Assembly: GCA_900450595.1 (NCBI GenBank)
Contig: UGGS01000001.1
Span: 620,001-684,000 of the forward strand
DNA from: [Flavobacterium] thermophilum
Lineage (GTDB): Bacteria; Bacillota; Bacilli; Bacillales; Anoxybacillaceae
Length of the DNA stretch: 64,000 bases
Direction of reading: 5' to 3'
In this document: in pieces, positions 40,678 through 50,207 of the stretch
Numbering within the stretch: position 1 is the first letter of the stretch
Layout: each line of letters starts with the position of its first letter
The notes under the pieces: model-generated
What the model was told of the DNA's origin: nothing
The model's input: the letters and a program-made list of their open reading frames with translations, nothing else
The model's database searches: none
Translations under genes and position numbers: made by a program

Positions 40678-41958
40678 TTAAATTCCCATACTACTTACGA
40701 CATATGGCTGAAGACGAAGTCGTTTGATTTCTTCATCATGCAGTCGAATAAATTGATCCCATCTCTCTAAACATTTGTTCCTATCTATTTCTTTTCGATT
40801 GTTTTTCACGTTCATGATTAAAAATGCGCTGTATAAATCTCGTTGTACTTTGTGTCCGTCTACTTCATGCCATCGTTGAGAAAGTGTTTTCTTGTTGTAC
40901 TCATCGTTTTGATGGTCGTATTGACTTGCCTTGACGCTAAATGTGTCGATGTATTGAAGGGAATAGCCTTCATATTGCAGTTTTTGATTTAGTATGTTCA
41001 AAAACAAACTTGGCGCACGATTCGCAATGCTTTTCCCAAATCGTTTTTTCTTTTTGTATTTTCCGTTGGCATCGACTTTTGTTTCTTTTGCCTTTGCTTG
41101 AAGTGCTCTGAAATTCATTTTTTCTACTTGGATATGATGGCCTAATGTGATGATCCAATTAGCAAGCCGTTGATGATCTTGTTTACGTTTTTCAGCCATC
41201 TTTCTTTGCAACTCGGCTAGTTGTTGACGAGTTTTTAGATAATTTTTACTCCAAACCCATTTTTCCTTGTTGTCTTTTTTTATTGTTCCATCTTCATTGT
41301 ATTTGTGTGGATTATTCGCCCGTCTTTGACGATCCAATTTTCGTTGAAGAACTCGCTTTTGCTTTTCTATGTTTTCGATGCTCGGCGCAAGAACGAACAA
41401 CTTGACATTATTCATTGAACAAATAGCGATGGTTTGTGTTCCTATGTCGATGCCAACATCGCCTTGCCCTATTGGATGTTTTACTTCTCCTGTTTGACGG
41501 TTTATTTTCTTTGGCGGCACACCTTCAAGGGTGAGTTGGAGAAAATACTTGATTTTCCCCCTAATCCGTCTACGAACGATGCGACAATATTTTATACGGT
41601 CTTGTAGAGCCGTATGTGCATATATATCGTTTGAGCGAATTATAACAGGAATAGATAAACCATTCCAAAGCAAATGTTTGTTTTTGAAACGGATGCCTGT
41701 GCTATTTGTTTTTCCTTCTAATGAATCCATATCGTTGTATTTTTTAAAAGACACTTTTTTGGCATTGCCAAAGATTAGTTTTTCCATTGCCATACATGCT
41801 CTCGTAGCGATTTTTTGTGCGGTGTGTGAGTCGATGTGTTTCTTGAAATGGTGTTGCATTGGCTTAACAAAATCGTGCATAGCGTATTCATTGATTCCGT
41901 ACTGCCGATATAACTCATTTAGCAAGTTGTTTCTTTCTTTTGATTTTGGTTGTTGGAT
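40678..41958 (-). pseudogene. tnpB: TnpB-like RuvC nuclease, element A, main part (interrupted by IS630)
   Basis: 426 codons with the RuvC triad: GDVGIDIGTQTIAI (Asp), HIQVEKMNFRALQ (Glu) and KVQRDLYSAFLIM (Asp). Between the last two motifs the usual CxxC...CxxC zinc ribbon is absent; this region reads SVKASQYDHQNDEYNKKTLSQRW. The N-terminal 61 codons lie beyond an IS630 insertion. Joining the pieces at the TA target restores the frame as ...YRHL-IQQPKSKERNN... (about 487 residues). Interrupted, so presumably inactive here. Confidence 0.75.
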
Positions 41959-41960
41959 TA

Positions 41961-43157
41961 TATACATGCAACATGAAGAGTTAACTTCTCAGTCATCCTG
42001 CACACCCTAAGCGCTGCAGCACTTCCTCCGGACGTTCGTGGATGTAGTTGACAAACCGAGTAATGGCTTGAATGATATCGTTGCGATCCTTGTGAAATAC
42101 ATTGGCAATCACCGTATCTTTCAGCCATTTCCATAAGCGTTCGATCGGGTTCAGCTGTGGCGAATAGGGAGGAAGGTAAATAAAGTGAAAACACTGCCCT
42201 TCTTCCCGCAAAAACTCCTTGACCATCTTGGCATGGTGAATGCGGGCGTTATCCAACACCAAGACCATGAGACGGTCTGGATAGCGCTCTTTGAGCATTC
42301 TCAAGAAATCCAAGAACGTCGCAGCATTGGCGGCAGTTGTTTGATGAAGCACCGTTTCACCATCATGGACGTTGACCGCGCCAAACAGCGATACGTGGGC
42401 ATGATGGCCAAACGTCGGCACTTGTTTTTGGCGGCCGACTTCCGACCATGTGGACCGCAAGACATGGTAAGAGCGGATATGGGTTTCATCGATGTACAGA
42501 AGAACAGCATCTTCTGTCTCCTTGGTGATCAAGTTTTTTTTTATCAGATCCATTTGTTTTTCAAATTGCTTTTGCTCATCCGGATTTCCTTTCGCCAGTG
42601 TGTACGTCGGTCGTGTCCACGACAGCCCTTTGCGGTGCAGGAGTTTTCGCAACGCTTCGCGGGAAATGGAAACACCGAATTGCTTTGCGACATAGGATTG
42701 CAGGAGTTTGGTGTTCCACGCCGAAGCGACGTCCCAGCCCAGTTCCGCGGGAGTGGTGGTCAATACAAGCTGTTTGATCTTTTCTTGCTGTTCTTCCGTG
42801 AGAAACGGCTCCCGCCCAGGGGCGAAATCCCGATGAAGCAAGAGCTCCAGACCGCCTTCGTTGAACAGCGACACATAATGGGAAACGGTTTGTCGGCACA
42901 CGTTGACCATGGAGGCCACCTCTTTGCCCAAATAGCCTTCCATGACCAGGCGGACGGCCATCACACGTTGGCGAAGAAGGGTGTTTTTGATTTTCCGTTC
43001 CTGTTTGCGAAGTGTCCGAGGTGTCCATCCGTGATCGTTGGTGATTTTGAGACGTTTCATGCAGAATTCCGCTCCTTTTCCATGTTTTTCATTAGGAGCA
43101 GTATAACCAGAGTGGGCACCGCTTATGCGAAGGTTAACTTTTCAATGAGCATGTATA
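41961..43157 (-). mobile_element. IS630 family insertion sequence 1
   Basis: About 1197 bp. Both ends read TATACATGC inward, followed a few bases later by similar GAAGAGTTAAC and GAAAAGTTAAC. TA dinucleotides flank it (41959-41960 and 43158-43159), the standard IS630 target. Removing the element and one TA restores the TnpB-like frame, which supports these borders. Confidence 0.8.
41993..43060 (-). CDS. IS630 family transposase 1
   Basis: 355 residues: helix-turn-helix region (RQRVMAVRLVMEGYLGKEVASMVNVCRQTVSHYV), a winged-helix segment, and the DDE core with YIDETHIR (Asp), VLVLDNARIHHAK (Asp) and YSPQLNPIERLWKWLK (Glu). Complete and probably active. The gene lies on the minus strand, the same as its host gene. 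Confidence 0.92.
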   Translation of the reverse strand: MKRLKITNDHGWTPRTLRKQERKIKNTLLRQRVMAVRLVMEGYLGKEVASMVNVCRQTVSHYVSLFNEGGLELLLHRDFAPGREPFLTEEQQEKIKQLVLTTTPAELGWDVASAWNTKLLQSYVAKQFGVSISREALRKLLHRKGLSWTRPTYTLAKGNPDEQKQFEKQMDLIKKNLITKETEDAVLLYIDETHIRSYHVLRSTWSEVGRQKQVPTFGHHAHVSLFGAVNVHDGETVLHQTTAANAATFLDFLRMLKERYPDRLMVLVLDNARIHHAKMVKEFLREEGQCFHFIYLPPYSPQLNPIERLWKWLKDTVIANVFHKDRNDIIQAITRFVNYIHERPEEVLQRLGCAG

Positions 43158-43340
43158 TAGATGACGATACTGCTTATCGTGTTGTAGTTTTTTATACCGT
43201 TTCAGCAATTCGCCCAAACAAGCGTTGTATATTTTTCTGCCAATTTCAAAACGTTTCTCTAATATGTGCGCTTGCCATAATTCTGTTTTGAGTTTCAACG
43301 TCAGCACGTAGCTTTTGGTTTTTGTTTTCGCCAATGACAC
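43158..43340 (-). pseudogene. tnpB: TnpB-like nuclease A, N-terminal part
   Basis: 61 codons (AKTKTKSYVLTLKLKTELWQ, FEIGRKIYNACLGELLKRYK) match the first strand-helix unit of TnpB proteins. Start is GTG 43340 or TTG 43334 behind AAGGAAG. It follows tnpA A by about 18 bases and ends at the IS630 insertion. Confidence 0.75.
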
Positions 43341-43358
43341 CACTTCCTTTATATTCCT

Positions 43359-43577
43359 TTATACGTTCTTTTGGTTTTCGATGTACTGTTTAACCGCTTC
43401 TTCTGAAATATGACCAATTGTGCAACAAAAATAACTTCGTGTCCATAGCGACGGTAGTCTGCTTTTTAACGAAGGATATTTTTCTCTTAGTATTCGACTA
43501 CTTTTTCCTTTAAATGCTTGTATTAATTTATGGATATGCTGTCGTGGATCAAAAGAAATAAACATATGAACATGATC
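43359..43577 (-). pseudogene. tnpA: Y1 transposase TnpA of element A, C-terminal part
   Basis: 72 codons from DHVHMFISFDP, containing the HUH metal-binding motif, to SLWTRSYFCCTIGHISEEAVKQYIENQ with the catalytic tyrosine. The N-terminal 61 codons are at 47484-47666. The two pieces rejoin as ...EIMP-DHVHMF..., the canonical sequence of IS200/IS605 TnpA (133 residues). Confidence 0.85.
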
Positions 43578-43579
43578 TG

Positions 43580-44720
43580 TATAAATTGAAATAAAGGTTT
43601 TCTCCCGTTCCACGGCGAATAAATAAAAGAGAAAATAGGGGAACGGAGAGAAAATATGATGCCAAATCACAAAGACGAGATCGAAAAGTTGTCCACTGCC
43701 ATGAAAGAAGCAAAAAGTAAACGAGCATATGAACGCTACCAAGCGATTTATCTTCATTTGCAGGGATATACCAAAGGAGAAATCGCAACGATTATTGGTC
43801 GATCCAAGAAAACTATTTATAACTATATTCATGCCTACGCCCAGCGCGGTCTTGATGGACTGGAGATGAAATACTCACCTGGCGCCCCACGTCGATTGAC
43901 CCCTGAGCAGGAAAAAGAGCTGGCTTTGATCATTGAACATCAGCTCCCCGTAGATGTGGGATTCGAAGCAAAATATAATTGGACGCTTGCGATAATCGCT
44001 GAACTCATTCAACAAAAGTGGGGGCCAACATACACGCTTCGCGGAACAAGTGACATTCTGCATCGGTTAGGGCTAAGCTATACGAAACCGACCTATACAC
44101 TAGCCAATGCCGATGAAGAGAAACAAAAAGAATTCGTCGAAATCACCTTCCCTGAAGTAAAAACAAACTGGTAGATGGGAACATCGCCCATGTCCTCTTT
44201 CAAGATGAGTCGATGATTCGTGATTACCAAGCGATTCAAAAAACATGGTTTGTCAAAGGAAAACAACGAATCATTCCGACGTTTGGAAAACATCAAGGGT
44301 TGAAGCTGATTGGCACGTTGAACTACGAAACAGGGGAAGTGTTTTGCATCGAAGAAGAACGCTATGACGCGGAAACATTTCTTCGATTTCTTCAACTTGT
44401 GTTAGAACGCTATCCCACAGGCAAAATAGTGATGATTTTAGATAACGCTCGAATTCACCATGCCAAACTCATTCAGCCATTTTTAAAAGAACACGAAGAT
44501 CGGTTAGAGCTCGTCTTTTTGCTACCATACAGTCCGCAATTGAACTTGATTGAAGGGCTATGGAAATGGCTGAAATCAGACGTGATTTACAACGTGTTCT
44601 ATTCGAGTGTGCAAGAAATTAGAAAGAATGTCCAAGCCTTTATTCAGCGAATCAACCAGAAACCAGAACAAACGATCGATCGTTTGTGTGTTCAGTTGTA
44701 AATCTTTAATTCAACTTATA
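43580..44720 (+). mobile_element. IS630 family insertion sequence 2
   Basis: About 1141 bp with ends TATAAATTGAAATAAAG and, inverted, TATAAGTTGAATTAAAG. It differs from IS630 element 1. Left neighbour is tnpA A, right neighbour is tnpA B, so its two flanks come from two different genes. Exact borders are ambiguous by two to four bases in TA repeats. Confidence 0.8.
43656..44701 (+). pseudogene. IS630 family transposase 2, in two reading frames
   Basis: The first frame (43656-44174) gives the helix-turn-helix part (GYTKGEIATIIGRSKKTIYNYIHAYAQRGLDGLEMKY) and ends EVKTNW. The second frame, -1 relative, carries the catalytic part FQDESMIRDYQ, MILDNARIHHAK and YSPQLNLIEGLWKWLK (from about 44165; its first ATG is 44213). 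The switch lies at GTAAAAACAAAC (44157-44168). A -1 ribosomal slip on the A run is possible, since some IS elements use that, but a simple frameshift mutation is equally likely. Confidence 0.7.
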
Positions 44721-45071
44721 TATCATTTTGTTTTCTGTCCACGGTATCGAAGAAAGGTGTTAGTGGGCAGAGTGGAAGAGCGATTCAAGCAGTTAGTAGA
44801 AGAAATTTGCCAGGAGAATGATTGGATCATCCTTGCTATGGAAGTGATGCCTGATCATTGTCATTTGTTCTTGAATTGCCTCCCTTCTGATTCTCCATCA
44901 GATATGATGGCAAAAGTGAAAGGAGCGACTTCCAGACGATTAAGACAAGAATTTCAACACTTGTCTCGTCTGCCGAGTCTTTGGACACGCTCTTTCTTCG
45001 TTAGTACAGCAGGGAATGTATCAAGTGAGACAATAAAACGTTATGTGGAATCTCAAAAGAAAAGGGGGTGA
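44721..45071 (+). pseudogene. tnpA: Y1 transposase TnpA of element B, all but the first 8 codons
   Basis: 116 codons starting YHFVFCPRYRRKVLVG, with HUH variant MPDHCHLF and catalytic tyrosine in ETIKRYVESQ. It has no start; its missing N-terminus (MAHNFQFL with ribosome site) lies at 47098-47121, next to an IS630 fragment. Rejoined it gives a normal 124-residue TnpA. Confidence 0.85.
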
Positions 45072-45075
45072 ATCC

Positions 45076-46131
45076 ATGCCGACGATCACCCTAAGGCTGG
45101 AGCTGCACAAGCCAACGAAAGCCAAACAAGATATGTATGAACGGATGACAGCAGTGAATACCGCGTTTGCGAATTGGCTGTTGAATCATCCCGAACTGAA
45201 TCAAGCGACGAGCAAAATGTTTAAAACGTTTTCGTCGCAGCGGTTTCCTTCCGCCGTCGTCAATCAGACGATTCGAGAAGTGAAGTCCCAAAAGAAAAAA
45301 CAAAAGGCAAAGAAGTTCCGAACATTCTGGTGTTGCTTTAACAATCAAAACGTGAAGGTGGAAAAGAAAGGAGCGTTCTACACGGTTTCCTTCCCCACAC
45401 TGGAGAAGCGAATTGGCGTGCCAGTGGTCACGCGTTCCTATCAAGAAGCGTGGCTGAATCGGCTGCTCGATGGAACCGCCAAACAAGGGGCCGCCAAGCT
45501 CTATAAAAAGAGAACGAAATGGTACTTGGCTGTTGCGGTCACCTTTGACGTGAAGCTGCGGCACGAAACAAAGGTGATGAGGGTTGACCTTGGGCTTCGC
45601 TATATCGCCGTGGCCAGCGTAGGAACGAAATCACTGTTTTTCAAAGGGAACCAATGCGCCTTTGTACGTCGACGATATGCGGCTTTGCGGCGAAGGCTGG
45701 GCCAAGCCAAGAAGCTTCATATGATTCGCAAAATCGGCCGTAAAGAGTCCCGCTGGATGAAGGATCAAAATCACAAAATCAGCTGTCAAATCGTGAATGT
45801 TGCCCTCGCCAACGGTGTTGGCGTGATTCGGATGGAAGCGTTGACAGGGATTCGGAAACGGGCAAAATCGGCCAAAGAAGCGGGGCGAAGCCTTCATGCT
45901 TGGGCGTTCCATCAATTGCAAACGATGATCGCCTATAAAGCGGAAATGGCGGGCATTCGCGTGGAGTGGGTGAATCCAACCTACACGAGCCAAACGTGTA
46001 AATGTGGTCATCGAGAGAAAGCGAACCGAAACGGCATCTGCTTCCGATGCCAAAGGTGCGGATACACTCTCCACGCCGACTTGAATGGCGCGATCAACAT
46101 CGCCAAAGCCATTTCGGGCTTCGCCTCCTAA
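45076..46131 (+). CDS. tnpB: TnpB RNA-guided nuclease of element B
   Basis: 351 residues, intact. RuvC motifs: MRVDLGLRYIAV (Asp), GVIRMEALTGIR (Glu) and HADLNGAINIAKAI (Asp). A zinc ribbon is present (CKCGHREKANRNGICFRCQRCG). Start ATG 45076 has AAGGGGGTG seven bases upstream, five bases after tnpA B. In IS200/IS605 elements TnpB cuts DNA matching an RNA guide made from the element's right end. Both its tnpA partner and left end are now detached. Confidence 0.9.
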   Translation: MPTITLRLELHKPTKAKQDMYERMTAVNTAFANWLLNHPELNQATSKMFKTFSSQRFPSAVVNQTIREVKSQKKKQKAKKFRTFWCCFNNQNVKVEKKGAFYTVSFPTLEKRIGVPVVTRSYQEAWLNRLLDGTAKQGAAKLYKKRTKWYLAVAVTFDVKLRHETKVMRVDLGLRYIAVASVGTKSLFFKGNQCAFVRRRYAALRRRLGQAKKLHMIRKIGRKESRWMKDQNHKISCQIVNVALANGVGVIRMEALTGIRKRAKSAKEAGRSLHAWAFHQLQTMIAYKAEMAGIRVEWVNPTYTSQTCKCGHREKANRNGICFRCQRCGYTLHADLNGAINIAKAISGFAS

Positions 46132-46292
46132 CCTAGCGCACTGGTCACAGGTGCGCCGCCCATGGGGGTACATCCTAACCCGATGGGACGGGGTGATGAC
46201 ACACCCCTAAACTTGGGCGTTGTCCAAACCAGAAATGGATGAGGACGCGAACGACCCAAGAATCCCACGGATTTAGGCGTGCGGAGTGTCAA
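46132..46292 (+). ncRNA. Candidate reRNA/omega-RNA and right end of element B
   Basis: The 160 bases behind tnpB B end in GAATCCCACGGATTTAGGCG then TGCGGAGTGTCAA, close to the usual IS605 right end (stem with TTTAG loop, then GGAGTGTCAA). Inner stems such as GGGGTGATGACACACCCC (46191-46208) are visible. If expressed, the guide would be read from about 46293 onward, into the neighbouring kinase locus. Function is inferred from position. Confidence 0.5.
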
Positions 46293-46293
46293 A

Positions 46294-46355
46294 AAGAAGT
46301 CGATCGTTCTATAAAAAATTTGGTTGAAAGATTAGGTAAAAAGGGATGCATATGA
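46294..46355 (+). pseudogene. C-terminal remnant of an unknown gene before the kinase
   Basis: The frame reads KEVDRSIKNLVERLGKKGCI and stops at 46353-46355, overlapping the kinase start in an ATGA arrangement. It looks like the tail of a gene cut off by element B, formerly translated together with the kinase. Confidence 0.4.
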
Positions 46356-46891
46356 AAAATCATCAAACAAGAACAGTCTATGTCATATCAGGCCCCGCTG
46401 GGGTTGGCAAATCAACAATTTCAACAGCATTGGCGAACAAGTTGGAGCGTAGTGCGTATATTTCCGGCGATGACATCAGCCATATGCATATCAATGGACG
46501 GAAAAAACCGTGGGAAAGTAAAGAAGAGCTTTCATTAATTTGGGATAATATTCTAAGTCTTGCAAGAAATTTTGTAAAATACGGCAATGATGTGGTAGTG
46601 GATTATATTGCCTTTCCCCAAGAAGCGATATGGTTGTATGAAAATGTAAAGGATTTAAACGTAACGGTTATGTATGTTGTTTTGTGGGCAGATGGGAAAA
46701 CGTTAAGGCAAAGGGATGAGATGAGGGCCCCCGAGCAACAAATGGGGGAACGCTGCCTCATTTTGCTGAATGAGTTCCATGCATCAGGATTCGATCGAAA
46801 GCATCTTTTGGATACTAGCGGGAAACGTAAGGATGACATAGATGAGATGATTGATGAAATCATGAGCAATCAAAGATTTCGAATTGGTTAA
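46352..46891 (+). CDS. Small P-loop kinase (chloramphenicol-phosphotransferase/zeta-like AAA family)
   Basis: 179 residues with Walker A ISGPAGVGKSTIS, YISGDDISHMH (an acidic pair after strand 2, typical of nucleoside/antibiotic kinases), a lid segment LRQRDEMRAPEQQMGERC with arginines, and VVVDYIAFPQEA. Phosphorylates an unknown small molecule; self-standing kinases of this kind include antibiotic phosphotransferases. ATG 46352 has AAAAGGG six bases upstream. It is more AT-rich than the core genes and sits inside the mobile island, so was likely acquired. Confidence 0.65.
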   Translation: MKNHQTRTVYVISGPAGVGKSTISTALANKLERSAYISGDDISHMHINGRKKPWESKEELSLIWDNILSLARNFVKYGNDVVVDYIAFPQEAIWLYENVKDLNVTVMYVVLWADGKTLRQRDEMRAPEQQMGERCLILLNEFHASGFDRKHLLDTSGKRKDDIDEMIDEIMSNQRFRIG

Positions 46892-47013
46892 AAGATGTTT
46901 CATTGGCGCTGCTCTTTCCTTGCCATCGCGAGTTGATTCTCACATCAGCAATGACACTGAGGACAGCAACCGCCCTTGTTCGCTTTTTTATGGTCCTGTC
47001 TGGGAACACAAAC

Positions 47014-47038
47014 AGCCCGTTTTCAGCGGGCTTTTTTT
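47014..47038 (+). terminator. Rho-independent terminator of kinase gene
   Basis: AGCCCG (47014-47019) pairs with CGGGCT (47027-47032), followed by TTTTTTTC. It could also belong to the left end of element B. Confidence 0.7.
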
Positions 47039-47097
47039 CATGATATGATAATGGAAAAAGAAGAAAGTTGCAAAAGAGACAAAGATGAGGGATGGAC

Positions 47098-47121
47098 ATG
47101 GCGCATAACTTTCAATTTCTA
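47098..47121 (+). pseudogene. tnpA: First 8 codons of TnpA of element B
   Basis: ATGAGGGATGGAC then ATG encodes MAHNFQFL before the IS630 fragment begins. Followed by the sequence at 44721 it reads MAHNFQFL-YHFVFCPRYRRKV, a canonical TnpA N-terminus. Confidence 0.75.
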
Positions 47122-47370
47122 TATAAATTGAAATAAAGGTTTTCTCCCGTTCCACGGCGAATAAATAAAAGAGAAAATAGGGGAACGGAGAGAAAATATG
47201 ATGCCAAATCACAAAGACGAGATCGAAAAGTTGTCCACTGCCATGAAAGAAGCAAAAAGTAAACGAGCATATGAACGCTACCAAGCGATTTATCTTCATT
47301 TGCAGGGATATACCAAAGGAGAAATCGCAACGATTATTGGTCGATCCAAGAAAACTATTTATAACTATAT
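47122..47370 (+). mobile_element. IS630 element 2, left-end fragment (second copy)
   Basis: The first about 249 bases of IS630 element 2 are repeated here without a mismatch that I can see: terminal repeat, ribosome site and the first 55 codons to KTIYNYI. It ends abruptly at ACTATAT, where a different short element begins. Confidence 0.85.
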
Positions 47371-47483
47371 AAGTTGCAATAAAGATTTTTCGATTGTTCG
47401 ATTCTGTTTTCCCTTCATACAAGTCGACTTTGATAGAATGCGGCGGGCGCTCTGCCGGATGTAAAACAAAGTTTCAACTTATA
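47368..47483. repeat. MITE-like element related to IS630
   Basis: About 116 bp with ends TATAAGTTGCAATAAAG and, inverted, TATAAGTTGAAACTTTG, close to the ends of IS630 element 2. The interior is noncoding. It separates the IS630 fragment from the 5' part of tnpA A. Confidence 0.6.
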
Positions 47484-47666
47484 TGGCATAATTTCTAACG
47501 CTTTAATTTCAACATCATTTTCTTTCGCTACTTCATACAAAATCTCTTTTAAATCTTTTTCAATATCTCCAACTAATACTTTACGTCTATATTTTGGACA
47601 AAATATAACATGATATTGATTTAAATAAACAATTCCATTTTTATGAGTATACTTATCATTAGACAT
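47484..47666 (-). pseudogene. tnpA: Y1 transposase TnpA of element A, N-terminal part
   Basis: 61 codons, MSNDKYTHKNGIVYLNQYHVIFCPKYRRKVLVG to KALEIMP, then interrupted. Ribosome site AGGAGG precedes the ATG at 47666. The continuation DHVHMF lies at 43577. Confidence 0.85.
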
Positions 47667-47677
47667 TAGATAAACAC

Positions 47678-47717
47678 CTCCTATCTAATATTTATTATAC
47701 AAAATATTAGATAGGAG
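47678..47717 (-). promoter_or_regulatory. Stem-loop covering the tnpA A ribosome site
   Basis: A perfect 16-bp stem (47678-47693 with 47702-47717, 8-base loop). The arm nearer the gene includes GGAG of the ribosome site. Hairpins hiding the tnpA ribosome site are known in IS200 and keep transposition low. Confidence 0.6.
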
Positions 47718-47750
47718 TCAATTATCTAATATTTTTTGTTTCGTTTCATC

Positions 47751-47770
47751 CCAACGACTAAAGTCGTGGG
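47751..47770 (-). repeat. Left-end hairpin of element A
   Basis: ACGACT (47754-47759) pairs with AGTCGT (47762-47767) within CCACGACTTTAGTCGTTGGG read on the minus strand; such subterminal hairpins are bound by TnpA at IS605 ends. Confidence 0.5.
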
Positions 47771-47970
47771 CTTTCACGAAACGCATCCTGTAATTATTGG
47801 TTTATCAGCCGACATTCAGCTTCCGCTGATCGCTGGGCTGCGACCTTTACGCGTTTGAAGCGAGAGTCTTCTTTCGAAACGATGATCAACGTTGCGGAAA
47901 GGAGGCAGTTCCATTTTTAGATAAATATTGATATCATGAATGTAGAAATAGAAGAAGGGAGATAGGAATC

Positions 47971-48405
47971 GTGCCGCGATTCGTTTGGCTTGAAACGGAG
48001 GAAGAAGTGAGAAGCGCCTTTCCGGTGATGCGTGAGCTGCGCACCCATTTGGATGAGGAAACCTACACGGCGCTCGTGCGAGAAGCGCAAGAACAAGAAG
48101 GGTATCAGCTTGTGGCGTTATATGATCAGGACAAAATGGTTGCGGTTGTCGGATTCATGCCGATGATCACGCTCTATAACGGCCGCTTTATTTGGGTGTG
48201 CGATTTGGTTACCGCTTCGAGCGAACGTTCGAAAGGATATGGAAAGGCGTTGTTGTCCTATGTGCACGAGTGGGCGAGGGAGCACGGCTACGGGATTGTT
48301 TCGCTGTCGTCCGGCCTGCAACGGATAGACGCCCATCGCTTTTATGAGGAAAAAATGGAATATGCAAAAGTCAGTTATGTGTTTTCAAAACGCTTATCGA
48401 GTTGA
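47971..48405 (+). CDS. GNAT family N-acetyltransferase
   Basis: 144 residues with a GNAT fold: LVALYDQDKMVAVVGFMPM, then FIWVCDLVTASSERSKGYGKALLSYVHEWAREHGYG containing the acetyl-CoA loop (R-x-x-G-x-G/A type, ERSKGYGKAL), and HRFYEEKMEYAKVSYVFSKRL at the end. Substrate unknown. GTG 47971 has GGGAGATAGGAA upstream. IS1182 copy 2 starts nine bases after the stop. Confidence 0.85.
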   Translation: MPRFVWLETEEEVRSAFPVMRELRTHLDEETYTALVREAQEQEGYQLVALYDQDKMVAVVGFMPMITLYNGRFIWVCDLVTASSERSKGYGKALLSYVHEWAREHGYGIVSLSSGLQRIDAHRFYEEKMEYAKVSYVFSKRLSS

Positions 48406-48413
48406 ATCCAACG

Positions 48414-50207
48414 GGGGCTGACCCAAAAGTCCGCCAAAAAGCGGACTTTTGGAGTCAGCCCTCTCTGGTTTTTGTATATTTTACCAAACGGAACAAAATT
48501 CCGACTCTGTTCTCCCCCTCATTTACGCCACCAAGGACAATTGCTTGTCCCTAGCGGCTTTTTTGAGAAGATTGTGGGCAGCACAAACCAGCCCCCATTC
48601 GATGGAAACTTTTTGGAGGCCTCGCAGGACAAAGCGACGAAACCCGCGATTTTGTTTGATTTGCCCAAATACACTCTCAATGTCGGTTTGGCGTTGGCGG
48701 TATCGGGCTTGCCCTTCTTCACTCTCCAACCGTTCGCGGGCTTTCTGTTTTTGTTCATGATAGACGGGGTTCCATTGCGTGGTTCGTCCATACTTGGAAG
48801 TCGTGCAGGCCGAACGGAACGGACATCCTTCGCATTCATGGCATTGGTAGTGTCGGGTGACCGAGGTGTATCCTGATTCCGTGGTCTGTTTCGAAGTTCC
48901 GGTGCGAACCAGCTTTTTCCCATTGGCGCAAATCCAAACGTCTTCTTCTTCCACATAGGTCCAATTCTGCTGATGATGCGGATTTTTCTTGACCTTGCGC
49001 GTGTTCTCCTTCTCATACGTATGGTACTTGATCAAGGCCGATATGTGCTTCTCTTCCAGCTTCACGTAGTTCTCTTCCGAGCCATAAGCCGCGTCAGCGA
49101 TCAAACGTTCGGGTTCCACGCCGTACTTCTCTCGAACGGTCTCCAAATGCGGGAGAAGACAACGAGTGTCGCCCGGCCTCTGATGAAGGGAATACCCCAA
49201 AATAAATTGGCCGGAAGAACCCACCTGTACGTTATAGGCCGGCTTGAGCTGGCCGTTTCGCATGTGATCCTCCTTCAACCGCATGAAGGTGGCATCCACA
49301 TCGGTCTTGGAATAGCTGTTGCGATCCCCGCATACATGGAGTTGGTGTTCATACTTTTCACTGCGGGGCAAGTAGTCCTCCTTCATCTTCTTGATGGCCT
49401 TCTTCAACGGTTGGTTGTCCGGCTCGGCCTCCAACCGTTTTTCCCACTCCTCGGTTTTCTTTCGGATTTCTTCTGACGTAAAGGCCGGCGAAGGGTCGAT
49501 GTCTTCCGCCTTTTCTTCTTCCACGATCGCCTCGATCTGGGCAATCAGCCGATCGACATTGGCTTGGAGTTTCTCCTGGTACTTCTCAGCCGATTTGCGC
49601 CAAACGAAGGTGTACCGGTTGGCATTCGCTTCAATTTTCGTTCCATCCACAAAATAATCTTCCATCTTGACATAGCCGTCGGCCACGAGCAGCGTGATCA
49701 TTTCCCGGAACAGGTCGTCAATCAGGTCTTTCATCCGCTCCGAACGAAACCGATTGATGGAGCGGAAGTCCGGCTTTTGAAATCCACTTAGCCACATGAG
49801 GGGAAGGTGGACTTCGAGCTGCCGTGCAATCTCACGGCCATGATACATTTTTTGGGTGTAAGCGTAAAGGAGAATTTTGGTCATCATTTTCGGATGATAG
49901 GCGGAGGCGCCCCCTCCTTTGTAGTAAGCAAGAAACGTCTCCATCGGGATGCGTTCAACCATCTCATGAACCACGTGGGCCATGTTATCCCGTGGAATGA
50001 GATCGGCGATGTTGCTTGGCAAAGAGAGGTTGTCCATGGTATACTCTTTAAAGGAAATATGATCATGTTTCATAAAAGAATCGCCCTTCTTTCGGTGGTA
50101 GTGGTTTTGGTGACTCTATTCTACCAGAAAAAAGGGCGATTCTTCTATATTTGAGGCAAAAAAGTGGGGGCTGATCCCAAAACGCATTCGCGTTTTGGGT
50201 CAGCCCC
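48414..50207 (-). mobile_element. IS1182 family insertion sequence, copy 2
   Basis: 1794 bp with the same ends, hairpins and gene as copy 1. The right-end hairpin is followed by TTTT of the host, making a working-looking terminator. No clear target duplication. Confidence 0.92.
48523..50073 (-). CDS. IS1182 family transposase (copy 2)
   Basis: 516 residues, identical in translation to copy 1 (see 10784-12334 for motifs), so the two copies are recent or kept alike by conversion. It has the same leader stem-loop. Confidence 0.95.
   Translation of the reverse strand: MKHDHISFKEYTMDNLSLPSNIADLIPRDNMAHVVHEMVERIPMETFLAYYKGGGASAYHPKMMTKILLYAYTQKMYHGREIARQLEVHLPLMWLSGFQKPDFRSINRFRSERMKDLIDDLFREMITLLVADGYVKMEDYFVDGTKIEANANRYTFVWRKSAEKYQEKLQANVDRLIAQIEAIVEEEKAEDIDPSPAFTSEEIRKKTEEWEKRLEAEPDNQPLKKAIKKMKEDYLPRSEKYEHQLHVCGDRNSYSKTDVDATFMRLKEDHMRNGQLKPAYNVQVGSSGQFILGYSLHQRPGDTRCLLPHLETVREKYGVEPERLIADAAYGSEENYVKLEEKHISALIKYHTYEKENTRKVKKNPHHQQNWTYVEEEDVWICANGKKLVRTGTSKQTTESGYTSVTRHYQCHECEGCPFRSACTTSKYGRTTQWNPVYHEQKQKARERLESEEGQARYRQRQTDIESVFGQIKQNRGFRRFVLRGLQKVSIEWGLVCAAHNLLKKAARDKQLSLVA

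Follow-up and report, generated by a model that had tools for sequence, protein, structure and literature searches.

The window analysed here is a 64,000-nucleotide stretch of the [Flavobacterium] thermophilum genome (C1:620001-684000 of 3.73 Mb), and our subject is a group of transposase genes and cargo genes at its positions 43359-47666. Along the forward strand, this group begins with the C-terminal half of a transposase gene, tnpA A (minus strand), followed by a TG dinucleotide, a full copy of an IS630-family insertion sequence (IS), a second transposase gene (tnpA B, of element B) that lacks its 5' end, and tnpB. It continues through a gene for a probable AAA_33 kinase, the first ten codons of hsdR, a partial IS630 copy and a miniature inverted-repeat transposable element (MITE) to a second TG and the N-terminal half of tnpA A (Table 1). 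We interpret everything between the two TGs as, most probably, a composite transposon.

Table 1. Features of the locus, in window coordinates.
Feature	Position	Strand
tnpA A, C-terminal half, starting DHVHMF...	43359-43577	-
TG, left copy of the 2-bp target duplication	43578-43579	+
Whole composite transposon (putative), 3904 bp, outer ends TATAAATTG... and ...CAACTTATA	43580-47483	+
Full IS630-family copy, ISBs2-like, 1141 bp	43580-44720	+
IS630 transposase, in two frames	43656-44174 and 44213-44701	+
tnpA B minus its first 16 codons; IS630 inserted at CTAT	44721-45071	+
tnpB of element B, with Cas12f1-like TNB domain	45076-46131	+
Small P-loop protein, probable kinase (AAA_33), 181 residues, open reading frame intact	46346-46891	+
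hsdR (type I restriction subunit), first ten codons, interrupted by IS630 at CTAG	47092-47121	+
Second IS630 copy, left part; same orientation and sequence as the full copy	47122-47367	+
IS630-type MITE, 116 bp, at a TA within the second IS630 copy; the unit ends on the right at this MITE's right end	47368-47483	+
TG, right copy of the 2-bp target duplication, also within the tnpA A N-terminal half	47484-47485	+
tnpA A, N-terminal half (IS200/IS605 Y1 transposase), 61 residues, ending ...EIMP	47484-47666	-

The two minus-strand pieces of tnpA A are the halves of one IS200/IS605 TnpA, cleanly split, as the original prediction had proposed from their sequences. The N-terminal half (47666-47484) reads MSNDKY...EIMP and the C-terminal half (43577-43359) reads DHVHMF...NQKNV; in translation they fit, end to end, the intact protein of genome G022 (...ALEIMPDHVHMFISF...). 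We compared both halves by BLAST with 13 homologous loci, out of 15 matches outside the window, leaving out two fragments at contig ends (L047 and L048). The halves adjoin at the DNA level in 12 of the 13; at the exception, L040, the N-terminal half aligns only from base 26. The insertion site in G022 reads ...CATGATC/TGGCATAATTTC..., with the slash at the point of insertion and a single TG, and in the window CATGATC-TG-[unit]-TG-GCATAATTTC. The two bases at this site are TG in six of the 13 homologues (G022 included), AG in four (the host paralogue at C1:2221551 being one), GG in two and AA in L040. Just upstream of tnpA A lies a 29-nucleotide inverted repeat (47665-47730; 86% complementary, 8-nucleotide loop) that may be an IS200/IS605 left end. 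On the other side, within 40678-43343, a different transposase with helix-turn-helix and DDE_3 domains (41993-43060) sits between two tnpB-like pieces, one of 69 residues (43134-43343, no Pfam match) and one an OrfB_IS605-like frame of 429 residues (40678-41967, below the Pfam cut-off), which to the eye look like one tnpB of element A.

The original prediction also rejoined two plus-strand pieces, MAHNFQFL (47098-47121) and 44721-45071, as the halves of a second tnpA, a pairing that the genomes of related species do not bear out. In G. zalihae (G010) and G. proteiniphilus (G009), MDMAHNFQFL runs on as EGKWDVLARVGE... into a protein of 1082 residues, of which MAHNFQFL forms codons 3-10, and two more genes come next. 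In G. proteiniphilus, the only genome that was domain-scanned, the three genes encode HSDR_N/ResIII/EcoEI_R_C, N6_Mtase/HsdM_N and Methylase_S domains, by which the set is identified as HsdR, HsdM and HsdS; the DNA at the start of hsdR is the same in G. jurassicus (G006), namely TTTCTAGAAGGAAAATGGG. The true start of tnpA B in G. proteiniphilus and G. jurassicus is a different one, ATGGAACAAGAATATCG... (MEQEYR...), which leads straight into YHFVFCPRYRRKV and joins the YHFVF part as MEQEYRRTKTIVSLIN-YHFVF (translated for G. proteiniphilus). By these comparisons MAHNFQFL-YHFVFCPRYRRKV is not one gene and the MAHNFQFL piece belongs to hsdR; the reading frame shared by the two pieces would be a coincidence.

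The order of the cargo is likewise that of relatives. Positions 44721-47121 have a single colinear match in G. proteiniphilus and in G. jurassicus (94.7% each), and no IS630 match was found in the stretches fetched from these two genomes around it. Since this order exists without IS630 in both, the segment is not permuted and a circle is not needed to explain it; the same order without IS630 is what the original prediction had itself named as counting against its view that element B was opened and permuted. The kinase region is present in three of the 13 other genomes of the genus that were searched (G. jurassicus, G. proteiniphilus and G. zalihae), with G. zalihae matching only 46334-47121, at 99.7%, and element B not found at its kinase locus. 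In G. proteiniphilus and G. jurassicus, tnpA B is immediately preceded by two copies of a 29-nucleotide repeat, 35 nucleotides apart (L028, 11208-11300), which resemble a CRISPR remnant of two repeats or the end of an element.

The uninterrupted relatives also supply both inner targets of IS630. In G. proteiniphilus and G. jurassicus the uncut site of tnpA B reads AACTATCAT, and hsdR of all three species has TTTCTAGAAGG; by comparison with them, IS630 is inserted at AAC-TA-TCAT in tnpA B and at TTTC-TA-GAAGG in hsdR, both ordinary TA insertions (CTAT and CTAG, respectively). The full copy encodes a DDE transposase, with matches to helix-turn-helix families in 43656-44171 and to DDE_3 (PF13358) in 44213-44698. 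It is 99.6% identical to a plasmid copy annotated as ISBs2, from which we take the name, and the two show no notable difference in the element itself. That plasmid copy is annotated as one coding sequence of 1045 nucleotides, a length not divisible by three, which fits frameshifting and a transposase in two frames. The second copy retains 246 of 1141 bp: it stops after base 246 at the MITE, and the remainder is absent. Between them the two copies make 43576-43828 and 47118-47370 a direct repeat, with the same sequence over IS630 positions 1-249; the match reaches 47370 through shared bases. The full copy and 249-bp fragment described in the original prediction thus stand as such a repeat, to which must be added the 116-bp MITE after the fragment, unnamed there.

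Flanking dinucleotides set the window copy of IS630 apart. Among 11 copies (ten near-full-length matches and one plasmid copy), nine carry TA on both sides, as IS630 duplication of TA predicts, and these are all the other end-to-end copies; L130 is without a left end, and only the window copy combines TG on the left with TA on the right. Partial copies that retain base 1 (L005, L007, L111, L112 and L120, five distinct) all have TA on the left, and of three that retain base 1141, two (L007 and L118) are followed by TA and the third, the diverged L119 (77%), by CA.

The MITE and IS630 share an 11-base sequence, TTCAACTTATA, at their right ends. We compared MITE flanks at 20 of 25 loci, leaving out L061-L065; as L058 and L060 align only from base 9 and base 12, the count takes in right flanks only. 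The window copy has TA on the left and TG on the right, and TA stands on the right in 17 of the 19 others. Two MITEs at what seems to be one shared locus, L056 (G006:C2:47256) and L070 (G009:C9:14235), have TA on the left and CG and CT, respectively, on the right. The same TA within IS630 (window 47366-47370; G000 C1:1695248, L007) bears two different MITEs, the other IS630 copy concerned lying at C1:1694996-1695878, and in genome G007 a MITE-like match lies within another IS630 copy at a different position.

Taken together, these junctions make up our case. Two copies of one IS, the second of them partial, flank cargo known elsewhere without them. The flanks of the inner elements are TG/TA and TA/TG, so that neither looks like a simple insertion; the outer flanks are TG on both sides, a duplication of only 2 bp. 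Because the outer flanks agree while the inner elements' own flanks do not, they point to one insertion of the whole 3,904-bp unit, and we infer from the junctions alone that the unit transposed as a whole. Most probably, then, an IS630-family composite transposon moved en bloc into tnpA A. Such a locus is an ordinary kind of mobile DNA and a known kind of element, and it needs no swapped gene halves. The original prediction's segment entering tnpA A, bounded by IS630, with IS630-type ends and with the kinase and part of element B inside, is retained in this interpretation; the circle it invoked is unnecessary.

We propose the following order of events. In a donor with the order tnpA B - tnpB - kinase - hsdR, an ISBs2-like IS630 would have inserted into a TA of tnpA B, and another in the same orientation into CTAG at codon 10 of hsdR. 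An IS630-type MITE would then have entered a TA inside the second copy. Finally, the IS630 transposase would have brought together the MITE's right end and the first copy's outer left end, and everything between these ends would have been carried to CTGG in tnpA A, with TG duplicated; alternatively, it would have used the true IS630 right end, with a subsequent deletion across the shared TTCAACTTATA removing the intervening stretch. Use of the MITE right end and later loss of the IS630 right end leave identical sequence, and either would account for it. We therefore put forward only tentatively, as quite possible and somewhat short of probable, the specific proposal that the transposase paired an IS630 left end with a nested MITE right end and that a hybrid-ended composite inserted at TG. 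Two features are mildly unusual, a target other than TA and a right boundary formed by a MITE; CTGG is one base away from IS630's CTAG.

Several observations weigh against en bloc movement of a composite transposon. A TG target is unusual for IS630, and agreement of TG with TG would by itself arise by chance about once in 16 if bases were even. That the lost original site in tnpA A carried TG is deduced from the flanks, and other tnpA A homologues have AG (four of 13) or GG (two of 13) at the site. The odd MITE flank is not decisive alone, as two of the 19 other MITEs, seemingly at one locus, also have a non-TA right flank. No IS630 lies at the kinase region of G. jurassicus, G. proteiniphilus or G. 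zalihae, and no intermediate was seen there. Apart from short pieces, of which the longest measures 166 bp (96% identity), the cargo has no second copy in the host genome; the 5' end of tnpA B was not found there, and the host's own hsdR is only a distant relative, 72-76% identical (75.6% over 4.8 kb).

A donor was not found. The longest host piece is solitary (C1:1002471-1002636, L012) and corresponds to window 46128-46293, where element B has its right end, the match lying outside the tnpB gene. Two host loci were considered as donors and rejected: the type I restriction locus at C2:14000-30000 lacks any match to the kinase and, across the 4.8 kb that take in hsdR and most of hsdM, is 75.6% identical to G. 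proteiniphilus, and C2:466500-496000, as a surviving donor, shares flanking sequence with G. proteiniphilus and none of the cargo. The latter resembles G. proteiniphilus on the far side of tnpA B and, at 74.6%, over a piece of 378 bases; near C2:484070 the host retains sequence that flanks the locus in G. proteiniphilus, and no cargo is there. A plasmid search with 43000-48500 returned five records, none covering more than 25% of the query at its best place. The unit would have come either from another strain or from a donor since lost. As the kinase part is closest to G. zalihae (99.7% identical) and element B to G. proteiniphilus and G. jurassicus (about 95%), the donor was probably a strain outside the genomes compared.

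The same end product could have arisen through a translocatable unit. A small element with IS630 sequence at its left end and MITE sequence at its right (or a full IS630 carrying the MITE and later shortened) would first have entered tnpA A; a circle carrying one IS630, tnpA B, tnpB, the kinase and the start of hsdR, formed by recombination between direct IS630 copies in a donor, would then have joined it by homologous recombination in the shared IS630. The direct repeats this needs exist, as the 249 identical bases of the two copies, and such a circle has been proposed for MITESen1 (PMC13367494). We nonetheless consider this route unlikely: it takes more steps and an extra precursor, and no solitary IS630-left::MITE element of this kind occurs in 14 genomes of the genus, a weak argument with one genome per species. 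A pattern for that junction, with up to two mismatches allowed, occurs in those genomes twice, both times in the host; the second occurrence (L007/L092) has a different MITE and more of IS630. Unrelated insertions and deletions that left the pieces side by side by chance seem to us very improbable; there are several transposase genes in the area, yet the halves of tnpA A join up precisely, with 2 bp duplicated, and the outer flanks agree where the inner do not. We give next to no credence to an intact element B on a circle that opened within tnpA B at an IS630 end and placed its halves on opposite sides, for which only the in-frame look of MAHNFQFL-YHFVF speaks: MAHNFQFL belongs to hsdR, tnpA B starts differently in G. 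proteiniphilus and G. jurassicus, and the order in these two genomes rules out a circular permutation of element B.

Tenzen and Ohtsubo reportedly described an IS630-associated composite transposon and its preference for CTAG in 1991, to go by their title (J Bacteriol 173:6207). If so, the two cases are alike in that an IS630 composite moved as a unit, into the TA of CTAG there and into the TG of CTGG here; ours differs as a natural Geobacillus case with an ISBs2-like element, a MITE end as right boundary and a TG target. The original prediction named no IS630 precedent; that title would supply one for composite transposons. A literature search found no paper on ISBs2 together with Geobacillus, nor on an IS630 composite transposon together with Geobacillus. 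IS630 elements are called usual parts of composite transposons in one paper (PMC9977792). Insertion at a non-TA target has precedent in ISY100: of 39 products in vitro, 34 were normal TA insertions and two had AA/TT duplicated (PMC2170065). TIME-COMPs are similar in that the end of a miniature element bounds the mobilised segment, and differ in having two Tn3-type miniature elements as bounds, where the locus described here would have an IS630-family IS and an IS630-type MITE (PMC13367494).

The locus thus offers a naturally occurring example of host genes carried along by an IS630-family element, and every one of its junctions can be read. It also illustrates that a reading frame running on across an insertion by chance can be mistaken for a split gene. 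If the transposase did pair an IS630 left end with the right end of the nested MITE, then a MITE lying within an IS copy can determine where a mobile segment ends.

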